From: Gemmatimonadota bacterium
GTDB lineage: Bacteria > Gemmatimonadota > Gemmatimonadetes > Longimicrobiales > Gaopeijiaceae
NCBI GenBank assembly: GCA_027623325.1
Contig: JAQBXY010000005.1
Location: 1-64,000, forward strand
Direction: 5' to 3'
Length of the DNA: 64,000 bases
The notes below the pieces were generated by a model, which was given only the letters and a program-made list of their open reading frames with translations, was not told where the DNA came from and made no database searches. Position numbers and translations under genes: made by a program. Shown piece after piece: positions 1 to 29,651 of this stretch (position 1 is the stretch's first letter; every line of letters begins with the position of its first letter).

Positions 1-387
1 TGGGCGGGATCCTAAGCCACTACTACCGGCAAGCCGCATGAGAGGCTCGTTCTGGTTTTGGAACAGGACGGCGGCAACTTCATCGCCTTCGTCGGGAATC
101 CAGCCTCCGGACGGTTGCTCCGTCAGTCGTTACGGCACTTCCGGGAGACGACGATCTTCCCGTCCGAGGGGATCGTTTCCTCTTCGATGGTGCCCGGTGT
201 CGAACTCTCGGACCACGCCTCGTTCTGGAGGAACGGCTTCCCGGCCGTCCTCATCTCGGACACGGGTCCGTTCCGCAACCTCAACTACCATCTCGGAACG
301 GACTCGGCCGACAACCTCGACTTCGACCGCATGGCGATCGTGATCGCCGGGGTACGGCGGCTGGTCGAGGCGATGGCTGCGGGCTAG
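1..387 (+). pseudogene. M28-family metallopeptidase, C-terminal fragment
   Basis: The last ~105 codons match the C-terminal part of M28 aminopeptidases: FIAFVGN, then PGVELSDHASFWRNGFPAV, DTGPFRNLNYHLGTDSADNLD, with the late zinc-ligand histidine in the YHLGTDS-type motif. The homologous frame runs from about position 55 to the stop at 385-387. Upstream in that frame there is a TAA at 13-15, and codons 16-57 do not resemble the expected family sequence. The catalytic core (first His/Asp and Glu ligands) is not in this frame within the window. Either the gene is a 5'-damaged remnant or the contig edge is disturbed; a TTG at 58 is the only apparent start. It converges tail to tail with fdhA, whose stop overlaps it by 4 nt. 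Family call good, intactness doubtful. Confidence 0.6.
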
Positions 388-3089
388 TCCCGTTCGATTC
401 GCACCGGACACACCTTCAACTCCGCTGTGTCCGTGATGGGATCGTATCCGGACCCGGTGAGCACATTCACCGGCACGTCGTTGAAGGAGAACGAACTGAA
501 CACCGTGCCTCTGGGAGATCGGTTCGTGGCCTCCACGCGGACTCGCACGGACCCCCGCCGGCTCGACATTTTGACCCAACCGCCATCCTCGATCTTCCAC
601 GCTTCCAGGTCGCCCGGATTGACCTCGAGCGACTCCTCGGAAAGTAGGTAGTCGATCCCCTCCGATCGGCCGGTCTGCGTTCTGGAATGATACGAAGCGA
701 GGCGTCGTCCCGTCGTGAGCCAGACGGGAAAGTCGTCGTCGATCGTTTCCGCGGGATCGCGATAGCGGATGAGCTTGAAGATCCCGCGCCCGTTGATGAA
801 CTCCTTCTCGTGCAGCCGCGGTGTGCCCGGGTGTCCTTCCTCGGGGACCGGCCACTGATACTCGCCGAACTCGACGCGATCCCAGTTCAGGCCAGCGTAC
901 GTTCCCGAGACGGAGCACAACTCGTTGAAGACATCCTTCGCGCTGGTGTAGCCAAAGCCCTGAAAGCCCATGCGTTGGGCCAGTTGCGAAACGATCCACC
1001 AATCCGGCTTCGCCTCGCCGGCGGGGGGGACGGCCCGCCGTAGCCTCTGGACCCGACGCTCGGTATTGGTCTGTGTGCCGTCGGTCTCCCCGAAACCACT
1101 CGCCGGGAAAACGACGTCGGCCAGTTCGGCGGTCTCGGTCATGAAGAGGTCACAGACGACCAGGAAGTCGAGTGACTTCAAGGCGCGCTCGCAGTGGTCC
1201 CGATCCGGGTCCGTGACGACGGTGTTCTCGCCGTCGATCAACATGGCGCGGATCTGATCGCCGGCCTGTTCGAGGGCACGCACCTTCGTGATACCCTTCT
1301 CGAGATCGACCTCACGCCCCCAAGCCTTGGCGAACTTCGCCTGGTTGGCTGGGTCAATGACTGACTGGAATCCCGGGTAGTTGTTCGGGATCGCGCCGAC
1401 GTCTCCGGCTCCCTGAATGTTGTTCTGACCACGCATCGGATTGATGCCCGTGCCTTCACGCCCGATGTTGCCGGTCATGAGCGCCAGGTTACAGAGGCCC
1501 TGCACGTTGTCGACGCCGCAGATGTGCTCGGTGATGCCGAGGGTGTAGTAGATGGCGCCGCGCTCGGCTCGGCCGTAGAGCAGTGCTGCTTCTTCGATCA
1601 GGTCCGGGTCCACCCCGGTGATCTCCGTCGCCCACTCCGGTGTGAACTCGGCGAGGTGAGCCAGGAACGCTTCCGCTTCCGTGGTGCGATCCCGCATGAA
1701 GCCCTCGTCGACGAGCCCCTCGCGATGGATGACGTGCGCCATCGCCAGAAGAAGCGCCGAGTCCGATCCCACACGGATCTGGAGCGTCACATCCGCGATC
1801 TCGGTGAGCGCGATCCGCCGCGGGTCGGCCACGATCATCTTGGCGCCGTTGCGGATTGCCTTTTTCAGCCGGGTGGCGGCTACGGGGTGACACTCGGTCA
1901 TGTTGGTGCCGATGCAGAAGATCACATCGGGCTTTTCCATGTCGCGAAGCGGATTCGACATGGCGCCGCGACCGATGGTTGCCGCCAGACCGGCGACTGT
2001 GGGAGCGTGTCAAGCACGGCTGCAGTTGTCGATATAGGAGGTCCCGAGTCCGGCCCGCACGAACTTCTGCATGACGTAGCCCGCTTCGTTCGGAGCCCGG
2101 CCGGAAGCGACGGCATAAAGGCTGTGTCGCCCGTGCTCGTTGACGGCGGCGAGAAGCCCGGCAGCCGCCTTGTCGAGTGCGACTTCCCACGTCGTCGGGA
2201 CGAGCTGACCGTGGTCGTTCCGAACGAAGGGTGTTTTCAGTCGGTCGGGATGGTGCACGAAGTCGAAGGCGAACTGTCCCTTCACACACAGGGCGCCTTC
2301 GTTCGCCGGGCCATCCATCGCGGGCTGGATGCCCACGATCTGGTCCCCCTTCGTCATGATGTCGACCGCGCACCCCACGCCGCAGTAGGGGCAGATCGAG
2401 CGCGTCTTTTCGACGGGCTTCTCGATGGCTTTGTGGCGTAACGCCTTGATGTCTCCCAGCGCTCCAGTCGGGCAGGTCTGGACACACTGTCCGCAAAAGG
2501 TGCATGCGGATTCCTTCAGGTGCCCCTCGAACTCGGTGGTGATCTGAGTATCGAAGCCCCGGTTCATGATCGAGATGGCGTAGTCGCCTTCTTGTTCTGC
2601 ACAGACCCGGACACAGCGGTAGCACGAGATGCAGTTGGCGTAATCGCGCAGGATGAAGGGATTCGGGTCGTCCGGCCGGGAGGTCCCTGAAATGCGGCCT
2701 TCGAAGCGCCCGGTGCGCGCGTCATACCGATCGACCAGCGTCGTGAGCTCTTGGGACGCGTAGCCGGACAGCTCGTCGACGTCGACTTCGCGGTTTTCAC
2801 TGACCACCAGTTCGAGCAGTACGCGCCGGTGCATTTCCAGGGCACCACTCCGCGTGGTGACCCGCATGCCGGGTTCCGCCTTCGTCGTACACGAGGCGAC
2901 CGGTGCACGCGCGCCCTCGACTTCGACGATGCACAGTCGGCATGCGCCGAACGCGTCCAGTCGGTCGTCATAGCAGAGCGTCGGGATCTCCTTCCCGTGA
3001 CGCTCGGCCACCTGGAAGATCGACTCGCCCTTCGTGAACGAGACGGACGCGCCGTCGAGCGTGAGGGTCAAACCGGTTTGGTCGCTCAT
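384..3089 (-). CDS. fdhA: Selenocysteine formate dehydrogenase, alpha subunit (NAD-linked type)
   Basis: Molybdo- or tungsto-bis-PGD enzyme oxidising formate to CO2, with electrons passing through Fe-S clusters to the NuoF-like beta subunit. The reading frame runs through a TGA at 2012-2010 (residue 360 of 901), in NCSRA-U-HAPTVAGLA, the position of catalytic Sec in E. coli FdhF. Order: [2Fe-2S] ferredoxin domain (C39, C50, C53, C67); two 4Fe-4S motifs (C153/156/159/163 and C196/199/202/206); CPYCGVGC with C268 binding the cluster next to the cofactor; then the molybdopterin domains. The NuoG-type His-Cys3 cluster motif expected near residues 87-110 is absent. ATG start 3089 overlaps the fdhB stop by 4 nt. 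An annotator without recoding would split this into two ORFs at 2010. Ends 4 nt inside the M28 fragment. Confidence 0.95.
1981..1997 (-). promoter_or_regulatory. Bacterial SECIS hairpin in fdhA mRNA
   Basis: In the fdhA transcript, a perfect 6-bp stem (GUCGCC paired with GGCGGC, one G-U) closes a GGUCU loop. Exactly 18 nt lie between the UGA and the GGUCU, the same distance and the same loop as recalled for E. coli fdhF, where SelB binds. Stem, loop and spacing are seen directly; SelB binding is inference. No selA, selB, selD or tRNA-Sec gene was recognised in this window. Confidence 0.9.
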
Positions 3090-4774
3090 GTGTCCAGCCC
3101 CGTGCTTCGGGAAGAGTGAGCTATATGATTTTGGACCGCGGCCGGAAAGTACCGCACGAGACTTTCGGCGATGAGCGGGGCAGCATGCCCGAGCCCGCAC
3201 GCCGACGTCTCCTTCATGGTCCGGTTGATATCTGCGACCTCGTCGAGCCACGCTCCCGGCTCGGTGGGACCCGCACTCCCGGCCAGGCGTTCCGTGAGAC
3301 GCTGAGTGCCGATCCGGCAAGGGAAGCACTTTCCGCACGACTCGTGCGCGAAGAACTCCATGGCGGAATGAGCCACGTCGACCATGTCACGGGTTTCGTC
3401 GAAGACCATGATGCCTCCGGCGCCCAGGAAGGAGCGCTTCGATCGGATCGAGGGTTCGTCGAGTGTTACGTCGAGGTCGTCCCCGGCGAGGAAGCCGCCG
3501 GAGAGCCCCGCCATCGTGACGGCTTGAATCTCGTGTCCTTTCCGGCCCCCTCCTGCCCATTCGAAGAGAAGCGTACGCAGCGGCAACCCCATGGGCACTT
3601 CGTAGTTGCCGGGTCGCTCGATGTCGCCCGAGAGGGAGATGACCTTGGTGCCGGCGTGGTCCCCGAGTCCGAGCCCTCGGTACCACTCGGCGCCGTGAAG
3701 GACGATCGGAGCCACGGAGGACAGCGTTTCCACGTTGTTGACCGCGGTCGGCGTCCCTTCGAAGCCGTGAGTCACGGGGTAGGGTGGGCGGTTGCGAGGG
3801 AAGGGGTGTTTGCCTTCCAGAGAATTGAGGAGCGATGTCTCCTCCCCGCAGATGTAGGCTCCCGCGCCGCGCCGGAGGTGGAGGTGGACGGTCTGCCCAC
3901 TTCCGAACACGTCGTCGCCGAGAATACCGGCTGCCTCCGCGTCTTCGATGGCTCGCAGGAGCACGTGCTCTGTTTCCGGATATTCGTATCGGAGGTAGAG
4001 GAAGGCGCGTGAAGCCCCTGTGGCGATGCACGCCAGTGCCATGCCCTCCAAGACGCCGTGCGGATCGTGATCCATGAGCGCTCGGTCCTTGAAGCATCCG
4101 GGTTCACCCTCGTCGGCGTTGCAGACCACCGTTTTGGGTCCTCCCGACGCGTCTCGGACGGCGCGCCACTTTCTTCCGGTGGGGAAGCCGGCGCCGCCTC
4201 GTCCGGTGAGTCCGCTGGCGTCGATGAGGTCCAGAAGCGCTTCTGGAGTCATCGAGGTGACCGCCTGTTCCAGGGCTTGGTACCCTCCCGTACGTCGGTA
4301 CCCGGCCAGTTGCTTCCGGTCGTCGTCCCTAATGTGTGCGAAGACACATTCCTCGATCCCCTGAGGAGGTGCGGGAGGCAGTGGCGTCTCCCGAAGCTCG
4401 AGGGCGTCCGCTCGCAGTCCAACGAGTGTCTGGCCTCCCCGGAGAACGGGGATCGGTTCGTCGCACCGACCGCTGCACGCCATCCCGGTCGAGCCCTCCA
4501 GCGCATCAACCAACTGCTCCGCTCCGTTCAAGCGGCAGATCGGGCCGGTGCACACCCGCAGAGCATCGAGGCCTCCTGCCTCCCGGGAGAAGTGGTGGTA
4601 GAAGGTCACGGTCCCAAACAGATCGGCGAGCGGAGTCCGTAGCCCTTTCGACACCGCGCGCAACGCCTCCTCACTGAGATAGCCGTCGCGCTCATGCAGT
4701 CGGTGCAGCAGCGGGAGGAGCGGTGCGGGCTGTAGGAGCGCATCCGCGATCAGCTCGTCGGTGGTCTGGGTCAT
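3086..4774 (-). CDS. fdhB: NAD-dependent formate dehydrogenase beta subunit, NuoE-NuoF fusion
   Basis: 562-residue fusion that would pass electrons from FdhA to NAD+. Residues 1-~125 are NuoE-like (thioredoxin-fold [2Fe-2S]): C75, C80, C100 and C104 in CTGPIC and CSGRC. Residues ~140-560 are NuoF-like: FMN loop GRGGAGFPTGRKW (191-203), NADH-site ADEGEPGCFKDR and GAGAYICGEETSLL, and the 4Fe-4S ligands ESCGKCFPCRIG plus a later SACGLGH cysteine. ATG start at 4774; the TGA overlaps the fdhA ATG (ATGA), so the two are translationally coupled. Only 4 nt separate it from the upstream membrane-protein gene. No separate FdsG or FdsD gene is present. The architecture points to a soluble NAD-linked enzyme rather than FdhF/hydrogen lyase. 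Confidence 0.93.
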   Translation of the reverse strand: MTQTTDELIADALLQPAPLLPLLHRLHERDGYLSEEALRAVSKGLRTPLADLFGTVTFYHHFSREAGGLDALRVCTGPICRLNGAEQLVDALEGSTGMACSGRCDEPIPVLRGGQTLVGLRADALELRETPLPPAPPQGIEECVFAHIRDDDRKQLAGYRRTGGYQALEQAVTSMTPEALLDLIDASGLTGRGGAGFPTGRKWRAVRDASGGPKTVVCNADEGEPGCFKDRALMDHDPHGVLEGMALACIATGASRAFLYLRYEYPETEHVLLRAIEDAEAAGILGDDVFGSGQTVHLHLRRGAGAYICGEETSLLNSLEGKHPFPRNRPPYPVTHGFEGTPTAVNNVETLSSVAPIVLHGAEWYRGLGLGDHAGTKVISLSGDIERPGNYEVPMGLPLRTLLFEWAGGGRKGHEIQAVTMAGLSGGFLAGDDLDVTLDEPSIRSKRSFLGAGGIMVFDETRDMVDVAHSAMEFFAHESCGKCFPCRIGTQRLTERLAGSAGPTEPGAWLDEVADINRTMKETSACGLGHAAPLIAESLVRYFPAAVQNHIAHSSRSTGLDT

Positions 4775-4778
4775 TCGC

Positions 4779-6101
4779 TCAATCCGCCTTCAGTCCGTTC
4801 GCCGCGTCGATCATAACGCTCGACTCGAAACCGCGCCTCGAAATCGCGAACGCCAGAGCTAGGTGAGCCGGGAGAGCGAGAGCGAAGAACATGGCGTTCT
4901 GGTGTCGAGAAGCCGGGGACAACTGCCACAGCACGCCGAGCGACGCGACGATGGCGATGGCGGCGGCCGTGCGCCAGGCAAGCTGGCGCCACCGGGCTCC
5001 CAGCCGTGCCATCGGTAGTAGCACCGCCGAGGCGAGCATCAGAGGATTGAAGAGAAAGAGGTTCTCGTTCCAGTACGCAAACGTGTGATCCGTGAGCAGG
5101 AGGAGAACGAGCAGGGTGCCGGCGATCCCTCCCAGGGCACTCCACCCGACGGTCAACGTGAGCACGCCGATGCGAAGCGCGGGGGTCGATCGAACCCGTG
5201 TGGTCGTCGACGAAGCAATCGCAGCGGCCAGCAGAAGCCCCAGGAATACGTAGATGCCGAGCCAGCGGGGCGGTTCCGTGGGATCGGCTGCGCGGGTCGA
5301 TTCGACCGCGATTTCTTCCGAAAGCACGAGTGGGTGCACCGAACCGTCGGATCGGGTGACGGTCACCGAGCGGATCGCGTCGCGTAGCGTCATGGGCACG
5401 AACATCTCTTCCCAGACCGACATGGGTGCGTCGGTAGGGCCCCCGAGCAACAAATCCATACCGGTGTAGATGAGTGGGTCGACCTGGGTAAGGCGTCGCG
5501 TCTGGTCGCGATACGTCGATCCGCTGGGCTCGGCCGCGAACTCTCGGTTCAACGCTCCTCCGAGCACTTGGTCCAGGAGGTCGCGCACACGCGTCGAGCA
5601 ATTGTCCAGGAAGTACTGGTAGAAGTATTCACGCCGCTCGGGGCGGGCATTCAGATCGGCGAGGGTGCTGAGTGCGAGTTTTTGGGTCGGGGTCAGGTCC
5701 AACTCCTGCAGCGTGATCTCGCGATTCGCCCGGGCGTAGGCGTCGATCATAGGCAGGCTCTGGAAAGGGACCATCATGTAGAGCATGCGTCCCTGCAGGA
5801 ACCGGGGAATGAAGTCCACCTGCTGGAAGTCGAAAATCCCCCAATTGTACGCCACGTCCCTTCCGGTCTCCGTGTCCAGGATGCGGATGGCGTTGTGGCC
5901 GTACCGCTCCCACACGGCGTCACCGGGCCCTGCCGTCACGAGCCAGACTCGAAGTTCGGAGCCGGGGTCCGGACTCGACCGAGCGACGATTTCGCCGAGG
6001 GCTTCCCGAGGAGGTTGCTGACCTGCGGCGCCGCACGGCAACGCTGCCCCCGCGACCGATGTGTACATCACGACGGGCAACATCACTCTACTCAACCACA
6101 T
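4779..6101 (-). CDS. Lnb-like (DUF4105) periplasmic/membrane protein, possible lipoprotein N-acyltransferase
   Basis: 440 residues. Signal peptide or N-terminal anchor (MWLSRVMLPVVMYTSVAGAA), then a periplasmic domain with DUF4105/Lnb hallmarks: WERYGHNAIRI, NWGIFDF, RFLQGRMLYMM, ANREITLQELDLT, ARPERREYFYQYF and DNCSTRVRDLLD. The Cys and His in these motifs are candidate catalytic residues. The C-terminal third has about five hydrophobic segments. This Pfam family contains the Bacteroides N-acyltransferase Lnb, which triacylates lipoproteins, and the window encodes many lipoproteins. The ATG at 6101 is chosen because it begins a good signal peptide; the open frame extends further but overlaps the divergent regulator. 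Stop is 4 nt upstream of fdhB, so it is likely cotranscribed with fdhBA, an odd pairing. Exact activity uncertain. Confidence 0.75.
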   Translation of the reverse strand: MWLSRVMLPVVMYTSVAGAALPCGAAGQQPPREALGEIVARSSPDPGSELRVWLVTAGPGDAVWERYGHNAIRILDTETGRDVAYNWGIFDFQQVDFIPRFLQGRMLYMMVPFQSLPMIDAYARANREITLQELDLTPTQKLALSTLADLNARPERREYFYQYFLDNCSTRVRDLLDQVLGGALNREFAAEPSGSTYRDQTRRLTQVDPLIYTGMDLLLGGPTDAPMSVWEEMFVPMTLRDAIRSVTVTRSDGSVHPLVLSEEIAVESTRAADPTEPPRWLGIYVFLGLLLAAAIASSTTTRVRSTPALRIGVLTLTVGWSALGGIAGTLLVLLLLTDHTFAYWNENLFLFNPLMLASAVLLPMARLGARWRQLAWRTAAAIAIVASLGVLWQLSPASRHQNAMFFALALPAHLALAFAISRRGFESSVMIDAANGLKAD

Positions 6102-26284: not shown

Positions 26285-26445
26285 GCGTTTCTCCGAAGGC
26301 CGAAGCAGATGCGACATGGTGTCCGACAGCTCACGACTGCGCAACATTGTCGGCATGAACCAAGTCGGTCGGTTCCAACCACTCCCCCCTCATGACTGTC
26401 AAAGTGTGTGCAAAGGGACAAGACGGACGAGATCCGCGGGGACCG

Positions 26446-26985
26446 GTGGGCGAACGAGTGCAGGCGTCTGTGGAGAGTGCTGACGTACGACGGGCTGCGG
26501 GTGGAGATCACACCGCTTTCGAGCGGCTCTAGCGCGATCACGTCGGGCGGATCTACGCCCTGTGTGTCCGTATGGTCGACGAGCAGTCGGCCGACGACCT
26601 CACTCAGGAAGTGTTCATTCGGGCGTGGCGCAAGCTGGATACGTTCAAGGGACAGGCACAGTTCGGGACGTGGCTCCACCGCCTGGCGGTCAACCACGTC
26701 CTCAGCAGCCGACAAACCCAACGAAACAGGGAAGCGAGGCATACGGGTGGAGAGGGCATCTTGAGTCAGGTCATCGCGCCCAACAGGAGGTCGTCGGGTC
26801 ATGCTCTCGACATCGAAGGTGCGATCCAACACCTGCCGGCGCGCGCCAAAGAAGTGTTCGTGCTGTACGACGTGGAGGGGTACAGCCATGACGAGATTTC
26901 CGAGGCTCTCAGTGTCTCGGTCGGCACGTCGAAATCACAGTTGCATCGGGCTCGCATGCTGATGCGACAACATCTGGATGGATGA
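26446..26985 (+). pseudogene. ECF sigma factor (RpoE type) interrupted by an amber codon
   Basis: Frame: ESADVRRAAGGDHTAFERL, stop TAG (26530-26532), RDHVGRIYALCVRMVDEQS, then ADDLTQEVFIRAWRKL, FGTWLHRLAVNHVLSSRQ (region 2) and LPARAKEVFVLYDVEGYSHDEISEALSVSVGTSKSQLHRAR (region 4). Family sequences have Tyr at the stop position (ERLYRDHVGR), so one C-to-G change (TAC to TAG) explains it. Translation from ATG 26572 would give a 137-residue protein lacking region 2.1. Start uncertain: GTG 26446 follows CGGGGA; GTG 26404 and 26470 are alternatives. The downstream anti-sigma gene is intact and overlaps by 8 nt. Either a true nonsense mutation, an error, or suppressed. Confidence 0.85.
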
Positions 26986-27730
26986 CATGAGCAGGAAACT
27001 CTTGGAACATCATGAGTGGACCGATCAGCTCTCTGACTACCTTGCGGGCGAGTTGACCGACGGTTCGCTCCAGAAGCTCCAAGCGCATCTCGACGGGTGT
27101 GGCTCGTGCCGCCGCGTTCTGGAAGGGCTTCACGACGTCGTCTCACGGTCGGGTGCGCTTGGAAACATCGAGCCGCCGCGGGACCTGTGGGGTGGAATCG
27201 CTGCGGTGATTCAGGCACCCGTGACCGTCGCGACGGAGGTCGGCGCGAAGGTGATCGCGTTGCCGACGGCCGGTCGGCTCGAGGGGGCTTCGCGGTCCGC
27301 GCTCGGGCCGTCGCGCTTCACGCTGACCGCCCGCCAACTCGTGGCTGCGTCGTTGGTGCTGATCGCCGCGTCCGCCACGGCCACCTGGTTGGTCGGCCCT
27401 GGACTCGGCGTGCCGGTGACCGGCTCGGCAGCCTCGGCCCCCGGGTTCGTGACGATGGTTTCGGAGGTGCCTGGGCCGTCTGCGGGGCTCGCGGCTGATC
27501 TGGCGGCGCTCGAAGCGAGTCTCGCGGCCGCCGAGGGCGTTCTCGATCCCAACACGCTTCGGATTCTCGAACGGAATCTCGGCGTGATCGAACAGGCGAT
27601 TCAGGACTCGAGAAGCGCATTGGCTCAAGATCCAGGGAACGAGTTCCTCACCGATCACCTGGAGCGGGTTTATCAGCGCAAGCTGACCTATCTGCGAGAT
27701 GCGGCGCGTGTCGTGGAGTCGGCCGGGTGA
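26978..27730 (+). CDS. Zinc-binding anti-sigma factor (ZAS), membrane
   Basis: 250 residues. N-terminal zf-HC2 motif HX3CX2C (H37, C41, C44 in AHLDGCGSC) that would bind the adjacent ECF sigma factor. One TM helix (LVAASLVLIAASATATWLVG, ~118-138), then a periplasmic part ending in a long helical region (ALEASLAAAEGVLDPNTLRILERNLGVIE...) with coiled-coil character. ATG 26978 overlaps the sigma stop; a second ATG at 26987 is equally possible. The stop overlaps the next gene by 4 nt. If the sigma gene is dead, this protein has no local partner. Confidence 0.87.
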   Translation: MDDMSRKLLEHHEWTDQLSDYLAGELTDGSLQKLQAHLDGCGSCRRVLEGLHDVVSRSGALGNIEPPRDLWGGIAAVIQAPVTVATEVGAKVIALPTAGRLEGASRSALGPSRFTLTARQLVAASLVLIAASATATWLVGPGLGVPVTGSAASAPGFVTMVSEVPGPSAGLAADLAALEASLAAAEGVLDPNTLRILERNLGVIEQAIQDSRSALAQDPGNEFLTDHLERVYQRKLTYLRDAARVVESAG

Positions 27731-28587
27731 TTTTGTTCGAGACCCTCCTCGTTGCCATCGCCGTGATGCCCGGGCCGGCCGCGCCCGCCGCAGATACGCT
27801 CTTGGATCTCCGGCGCGGTGACCGAATCGTGATCGAGAGTCTCGACGGCGAGGTGTCGATCGTGGCTTGGAATCGAGACCAGTTGGAGGTGCGAGGCGAA
27901 GCCTCGGACCAGGAAGTACTCGTTCGGCGAGTCGGGAGCAGGGTGGCTGTGATGCACGACGACCAGAAGGGTCGGCGCCGCCACGTCGAGATCACGTTGC
28001 GTGTCCCTTCCTGGGTAGACGTCGAAGTCGACGGACGATCGCTCGACGTCCGCATCGATGGTGTGGGAGGACGAATCGAGGTGGGCAACGTTCGAGGCGA
28101 TGTCTGGGTCCAGAACGCGGCGGGAGCCGTGGCGGTGCGTACGATGAGCGGGACGATCGACGTTGTCGGAGCGACCGGCGGTGTGTCGGCGTCATCGCAG
28201 TCAGGGGACGTGACGCTGCGCAACGTCTCAGGTCCGTTGTCGGTCGAGAGCGGGAGTGGTGACATCGGCATTGTGAACGCGCGGTCGGAGTCGGTTCGGG
28301 TAGAGACCCTCAACGGGGACATCGAGTTCTCTGGCCCGATCGGCACGGGCGACTACGGCTTCTTCGTCCATGACGGTGACGCGATGATCGCGATCCCGGC
28401 GGATACCAACGCCCGGATCAGCGTGTCCACGTTCGATGGGGAGTTCCATTCGGATTTTCCCGTCCTCATCGAGCGTTTCAGGGGCGGCCGTGAGTTCGGT
28501 TTCACGGTCGGTACGGGCGGCGCCCGAGTTCAAATTCAGGTTTTCGACGGAGAGATCCGTCTCCTACGACGCAGGGAGGGGGGATGA
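27727..28587 (+). CDS. DUF4097 exported beta-helix protein
   Basis: 286 residues with a signal peptide (LLVAIAVMPGPAAPAA). The body is a DUF4097 domain: ITLRVPSWVDVEVDGRSLDVRIDGVGG, then regular strand-turn repeats (GRIEVGNVRGDVWVQNAAGAV, VESGSGDIGIVNARS). Such domains form right-handed beta-solenoids. The gene overlaps both neighbours (4 nt each) in the sigma/anti-sigma operon, so it is probably a regulated envelope protein. Function unknown. Confidence 0.82.
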   Translation: MILFETLLVAIAVMPGPAAPAADTLLDLRRGDRIVIESLDGEVSIVAWNRDQLEVRGEASDQEVLVRRVGSRVAVMHDDQKGRRRHVEITLRVPSWVDVEVDGRSLDVRIDGVGGRIEVGNVRGDVWVQNAAGAVAVRTMSGTIDVVGATGGVSASSQSGDVTLRNVSGPLSVESGSGDIGIVNARSESVRVETLNGDIEFSGPIGTGDYGFFVHDGDAMIAIPADTNARISVSTFDGEFHSDFPVLIERFRGGREFGFTVGTGGARVQIQVFDGEIRLLRRREGG

Positions 28588-29651
28588 GGACATTGAGGAG
28601 TGTGGTGGTGCCGCCGAAGGTGGCGGCTCTGGCGGCTGCCGTGTTGATCGCGGGTCCGCTGAGTGGGCAGGAAGTCGAGAGGATTTCGGGTCGCAGCGTT
28701 GCGGTATACAACCTGGCGGGGCAGGTGCAGATCGTGCGCGGATCGGGCCCGGATGTCGTGGTGCGAATCACGCGGGGCGGAAGTGACGCGTCGGAGCTAC
28801 GGGTCGAGACCGGAGTCGTGAGGGATCGGTCCTCGCTTCGGATCATCTTTCCGAGTGACGAAATCGTCTACCCGGAGTTGGGGCGTGGATCGAATACGAC
28901 CGTTTCGGTCCGCGGGGATGGGACGTTCTCGGACGGTGACAACGAACGGGGGGATCGGGTTCGGATCCAAGGTCGGGGGAACGGGTTCGAGGCTTGGGCG
29001 GACCTGGTCATCGAAGTACCCGAGGGCAAGGACTTCGCACTCTACGTGGCCGTCGGCGAGGTCGAAGCGACCGGGATCACCGGCGACCTGCGGATCGATA
29101 CGGGGAGCGGGGGTGTGACCGCGACCGGCATCACGGGCTCGCTCGAGATCGACACGGGATCCGGTAGCATCATGGCGCGAGACATCAACGAAGACTTGGG
29201 AGTCGACACGGGATCCGGTCGGGTCGAAGTCTCGGGGGTAACGGGCCGTCGCATCGAGATCGACACCGGATCGGGAGGTGTGTCAGGATCTCGCCTCGAA
29301 GCGGACGCCCTCACTGTCGATACCGGCTCGGGTTCCATCGAGTTGGAATCGGTCACCGCGGCGGATATCTCGCTGGATACGGGCAGCGGCTCGATCGACA
29401 TAGAACTGATGAGCGACGTGGACAGGCTCGAGGCCGATACGGGATCGGGTTCGATCACCGTGCGCGCTCCCGCCGACCTCGGAGCGAGGATCGAGATCGA
29501 TACAGGGAGCGGAGGCATCGACCTCGGATTCCCGATTGAAGTCCGCTCGGTCCGACGGGACCATGTGGTCGGCACGGTCGGTGATGGACGGGGCGACATC
29601 ACCATCGATACCGGGTCAGGGACCGTTCGATTGATCCGTTCCGGGAGCTGA
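28584..29651 (+). CDS. DUF4097 protein with nine DTGSG repeats
   Basis: 355 residues. Signal peptide (KVAALAAAVLIAGPLSG), a DUF4097 start with VIEVPEGKDFALYVAVGEV, then a solenoid in which DTGSG occurs nine times between ~residues 172 and 350 at spacings of about 16-25 residues (IDTGSGGV, IDTGSGSI, VDTGSGRV, LDTGSGSI, ADTGSGSI, IDTGSGTV). Asp/Gly/Ser at each turn would stack in a beta-helix. Ends the ECF-sigma operon. Likely secreted; target unknown. Confidence 0.85.
   Translation: MRTLRSVVVPPKVAALAAAVLIAGPLSGQEVERISGRSVAVYNLAGQVQIVRGSGPDVVVRITRGGSDASELRVETGVVRDRSSLRIIFPSDEIVYPELGRGSNTTVSVRGDGTFSDGDNERGDRVRIQGRGNGFEAWADLVIEVPEGKDFALYVAVGEVEATGITGDLRIDTGSGGVTATGITGSLEIDTGSGSIMARDINEDLGVDTGSGRVEVSGVTGRRIEIDTGSGGVSGSRLEADALTVDTGSGSIELESVTAADISLDTGSGSIDIELMSDVDRLEADTGSGSITVRAPADLGARIEIDTGSGGIDLGFPIEVRSVRRDHVVGTVGDGRGDITIDTGSGTVRLIRSGS

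Follow-up and report, generated by a model that had tools for sequence, protein, structure and literature searches.

What does an in-frame amber codon mean when the gene around it shows no other sign of damage? We addressed this question for a predicted extracytoplasmic function (ECF) sigma factor gene in the window, a 64,000-nucleotide stretch from a Gemmatimonadota bacterium. The source genome, apparently metagenome-assembled, comprises 3.35 Mb in 60 contigs, with completeness given as 100% and contamination as 3.84%. Reading through the amber codon yields a product of 179 residues, in which Pfam recognises Sigma70_r2 at residues 28-93 (55 bits) and Sigma70_r4_2 at residues 122-171 (64 bits). 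It thus has the ECF domain plan of sigma-70 regions 2 and 4 only, joined by a short linker. Under the standard code the frame is interrupted at 26530, within a conserved domain and by a stop that the orthologues lack, as in a nonsense allele. The features of the locus are listed below.

Coordinates of the sigma factor gene, its predicted promoter and the genes that follow (positions in the window).
Feature	Position	Strand	Details
ECF-type promoter, predicted	26373..26403	+	TTCCAACC (-35), 17 bases, GTCAAA (-10)
ECF sigma factor frame, interrupted at codon 29	26446..26985	+	GTG start at 26446, TGA stop at 26983-26985
In-frame TAG (codon 29)	26530..26532	+	Tyr (TAC/TAT) in all 21 aligned relatives
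First in-frame ATG after TAG, possible restart	26572..26574	+	would give a 137-aa protein
Anti-sigma factor, zf-HC2, intact	26978..27730	+	zf-HC2 40.6 bits; HLDGCGSC fits Hx3Cx2C
DUF4097 (Toastrack / LiaG-like) protein, intact	27727..28587	+	
Second DUF4097 protein, intact	28584..29651	+	

The sigma factor was aligned with 21 relatives, among them four same-genus orthologues at 71-77% identity. A relative at 77% identity, L063, comes from a record of a Longimicrobiales metagenome-assembled genome. All 21 carry tyrosine in the column of the TAG, encoded by TAC in 18 and TAT in three, and none of them has TAG at codon 29; TAG is one base away from TAC. Together with the Pfam matches to regions 2 and 4, this alignment confirms the identification, made in the earlier note from the letters of the window, of an ECF sigma gene with an amber codon at a conserved tyrosine. 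The closest sigma paralogue in the same genome is only 43% identical, so the gene has no near paralogue there.

That note had also described the frame around the TAG as conserved, and codon-level comparison bears this out. Relative to the nearest orthologue (L004), the gene differs at 34, 20 and 94 sites at codon positions 1, 2 and 3, respectively; this codon-position structure, seen against the same-genus orthologues, means that the sigma frame is no chance match. NG86 dN/dS ratios between the window gene and the same-genus orthologues are 0.06-0.16, within the range of 0.075-0.19 found among the intact orthologues; all these ratios are rough, with dS near or beyond saturation, and they point to purifying constraint. 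Changes unique to the window gene number eight nonsynonymous (the stop excluded) to seven synonymous, compared with four to four in L004 (Fisher p = 1), a low-power test in which no excess of amino-acid change was found. A constrained frame free of such an excess indicates that the stop is either recent or not real.

The genes behind the sigma factor are equally well preserved. The anti-sigma factor and both DUF4097 proteins have open frames throughout, as the first reading of the sequence had stated. The first ATG of the anti-sigma gene still lies inside the sigma frame, giving an overlap of eight bases, and orthologues of the anti-sigma gene lie 3' of the sigma gene in the relatives as well, the arrangement of an ECF sigma factor with an adjacent cognate zf-HC2 anti-sigma factor. 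In L063 the operon seems to carry an additional DUF4097-like gene (3612-5644; open frames judged by eye). Our literature search for a link between ECF sigma factors and either DUF4097 or Gemmatimonadota found nothing.

Upstream, TTCCAACC-N17-GTC occurs at identical spacing before all five same-genus sigma genes (the window and the four orthologues), its AAC lying 68 to 86 bases 5' of the start codon, while the flanking DNA aligns poorly among the five. AAC-containing -35 boxes are the classical target of ECF factors, and positive autoregulation is frequent among them (PMC8103513). Its sequence and conserved spacing make the element a probable autoregulatory site of the gene's own sigma factor. 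A wider regulon was also considered and set aside; matches to the promoter in 2.4 Mb did not stand clear of control spacings.

To place the TAG in its genomic context, a coding-potential scan for in-frame stops was run over 2.44 of the 3.35 Mb. It returned 52 candidates (27 TAG, 18 TGA and seven TAA), many of which probably reflect gene boundaries or shadows of genes on the opposite strand. Three other in-frame stops were looked at more closely. At C26:146356 (L233), a TAG occupies a position where seven of seven relatives have tyrosine TAC. At C15:131992 on the minus strand (L218), a TAG lies in an ABC-transporter ATPase where two relatives of the same genus, at 97% and 92% identity, have the glutamate codon GAG. 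An earlier scan had located a TAA within a GGDEF domain at C22:16671, also on the minus strand (L134). Thus, the assembly contains in-frame stops of several kinds that replace more than one amino acid.

The genome offers little room for recoding or suppression of TAG. Release factor 1 is present (472.6 bits, exceeding the curated cut-off), and among the terminators of 990 long frames TAG accounts for 341 (34%), beside 550 TGA and 99 TAA; a change of the genetic code at TAG was rejected on these grounds. The excess of TAG among the stop candidates over its share of terminators might be taken as a sign of recoding. It was dismissed, for on the codon usage of this genome TAG is expected in 55% of one-step nonsense changes (81,391 of 148,815), and 52% was observed. 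In such a GC-rich genome TAG is the stop most often created by a single substitution, and a lone in-frame TAG is no sign of recoding.

The earlier note had proposed suppression as one explanation and a search for an amber suppressor tRNA as a check. That search has now been run. An Rfam search gave 44 tRNA matches in the genome, and with Rfam and ARAGORN no CUA anticodon was found among the 42 that could be resolved. The other two, class-II tRNAs at C43:78147 and C46:24846, were covered by anticodon-loop patterns only; across the whole genome, CTA loop patterns matched at no tRNA, these two included. A suppressor tRNA was therefore rejected. The residues replaced by the checked in-frame TAGs are Tyr, Tyr and Glu, inconsistent with decoding as a single amino acid. 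Together with release factor 1 and the ordinary use of TAG as a terminator, this leaves the proposed suppression unsupported.

Recoding in this genome likely concerns TGA instead, and a case falls inside the window. On the minus strand, the frame at 387-3386 encodes a formate-dehydrogenase-like molybdopterin oxidoreductase with an in-frame TGA at 2010-2012 (SRA-TGA-HAPTVAGL), which is spanned by a Pfam Molybdopterin match of 248 bits and is probably read as selenocysteine. A tRNA-Sec gene in the same genome (RF01852, 70.8 bits; C31:82167-82259, L241:2167-2259) supports the use of selenocysteine. An AhpC/TSA-family peroxiredoxin-like protein with RGHW-TGA-PYC is encoded on the minus strand at C8:261299 (L199:934-1605); its sequence makes it a likely second selenoprotein.

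Besides suppression, the first reading had named a recent event or an error, and this fits the frame without decay, the intact downstream genes and the similar isolated stops elsewhere in the assembly. We consider a recent single-base nonsense mutation of the tyrosine codon the best explanation, with a probability of roughly 0.6; the gene would then be an ordinary loss-of-function allele that is either fixed or polymorphic in the population sampled. An intact gene misread in the consensus or the assembly gives the same picture at the TAG and is a possible though less probable account. The single-base distance from TAC, the lack of further decay and the intact downstream genes are all as an error would leave them. 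By the codon usage computation, about 3% of random single-base changes create a stop. On this estimate, the further isolated stops (at least three in some 2.4 Mb) would correspond to a consensus error rate of about 1e-4, a rate possible where assembly coverage is thin. However, the checked stops fall in genes that appear dispensable, which favours real mutations, and a few nonsense alleles among some two thousand genes are the normal load of a real bacterial genome. A real recent mutation is accordingly favoured over an error.

Accounts in which the amber codon still yields a sigma factor fare much worse. Were it read through by a suppressor tRNA, by reassignment or by leaky near-cognate decoding, a full-length protein could be produced, perhaps in small and regulated amounts. 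The conserved frame downstream of the TAG agrees with this, and in-frame stops in bacteria have been argued to be often read through over short evolutionary times (PMC7918605). Besides the release factor, terminator and tRNA results and the Tyr and Glu replacements, the lack of the TAG in every aligned relative speaks against read-through, which we regard as very unlikely. Slightly less credible again is the notion that inefficient amber decoding throttles the sigma factor, so that the stop would reversibly regulate the sigma/anti-sigma/DUF4097 operon. Restart at the ATG some 40 bases past the stop could give a shortened yet working factor that retains regions 2.2-2.4 and 4. No Shine-Dalgarno sequence is visible before this ATG, however, and the product would lack the first helix of sigma region 2, which every relative keeps; of all the explanations, this is the most improbable.

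If the stop is a recent nonsense mutation, translation would halt after 28 residues, ahead of nearly all of sigma region 2, and no working sigma factor would be produced. Positive feedback through the predicted promoter would then cease, and the rest of the operon, with its anti-sigma and DUF4097 genes, would be silenced together with the sigma gene. Given the conserved ECF-type promoter and the frequency of ECF autoregulation, loss of the sigma factor would probably silence its own operon. If the case is as ordinary as it appears, it is one more nonsense allele, or a warning that single-base calls in genome assemblies need care; it also provides a useful negative control for recoding claims.

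Among known systems, the locus resembles ECF (group IV) sigma factors paired with class I zinc-motif anti-sigma factors. It shares with them sigma regions 2 and 4, an adjoining zf-HC2 protein with the Hx3Cx2C motif and, by prediction, an AAC/GTC-type promoter, but differs in that the sigma frame is broken at codon 29 and the operon runs on into two DUF4097 genes. As a stop allele, with one stop in a conserved gene and otherwise no decay, it differs in nothing notable from the bacterial nonsense pseudogenes and in-frame stop alleles treated by Belinky et al. 2021 (PMC7918605), the window case being known from one consensus sequence. In-frame stops were argued there to be common in bacterial genes and frequently short-lived, and the vast majority were assumed to involve no functional recoding (PMC7918605), a description that the TAG in this sigma gene fits.
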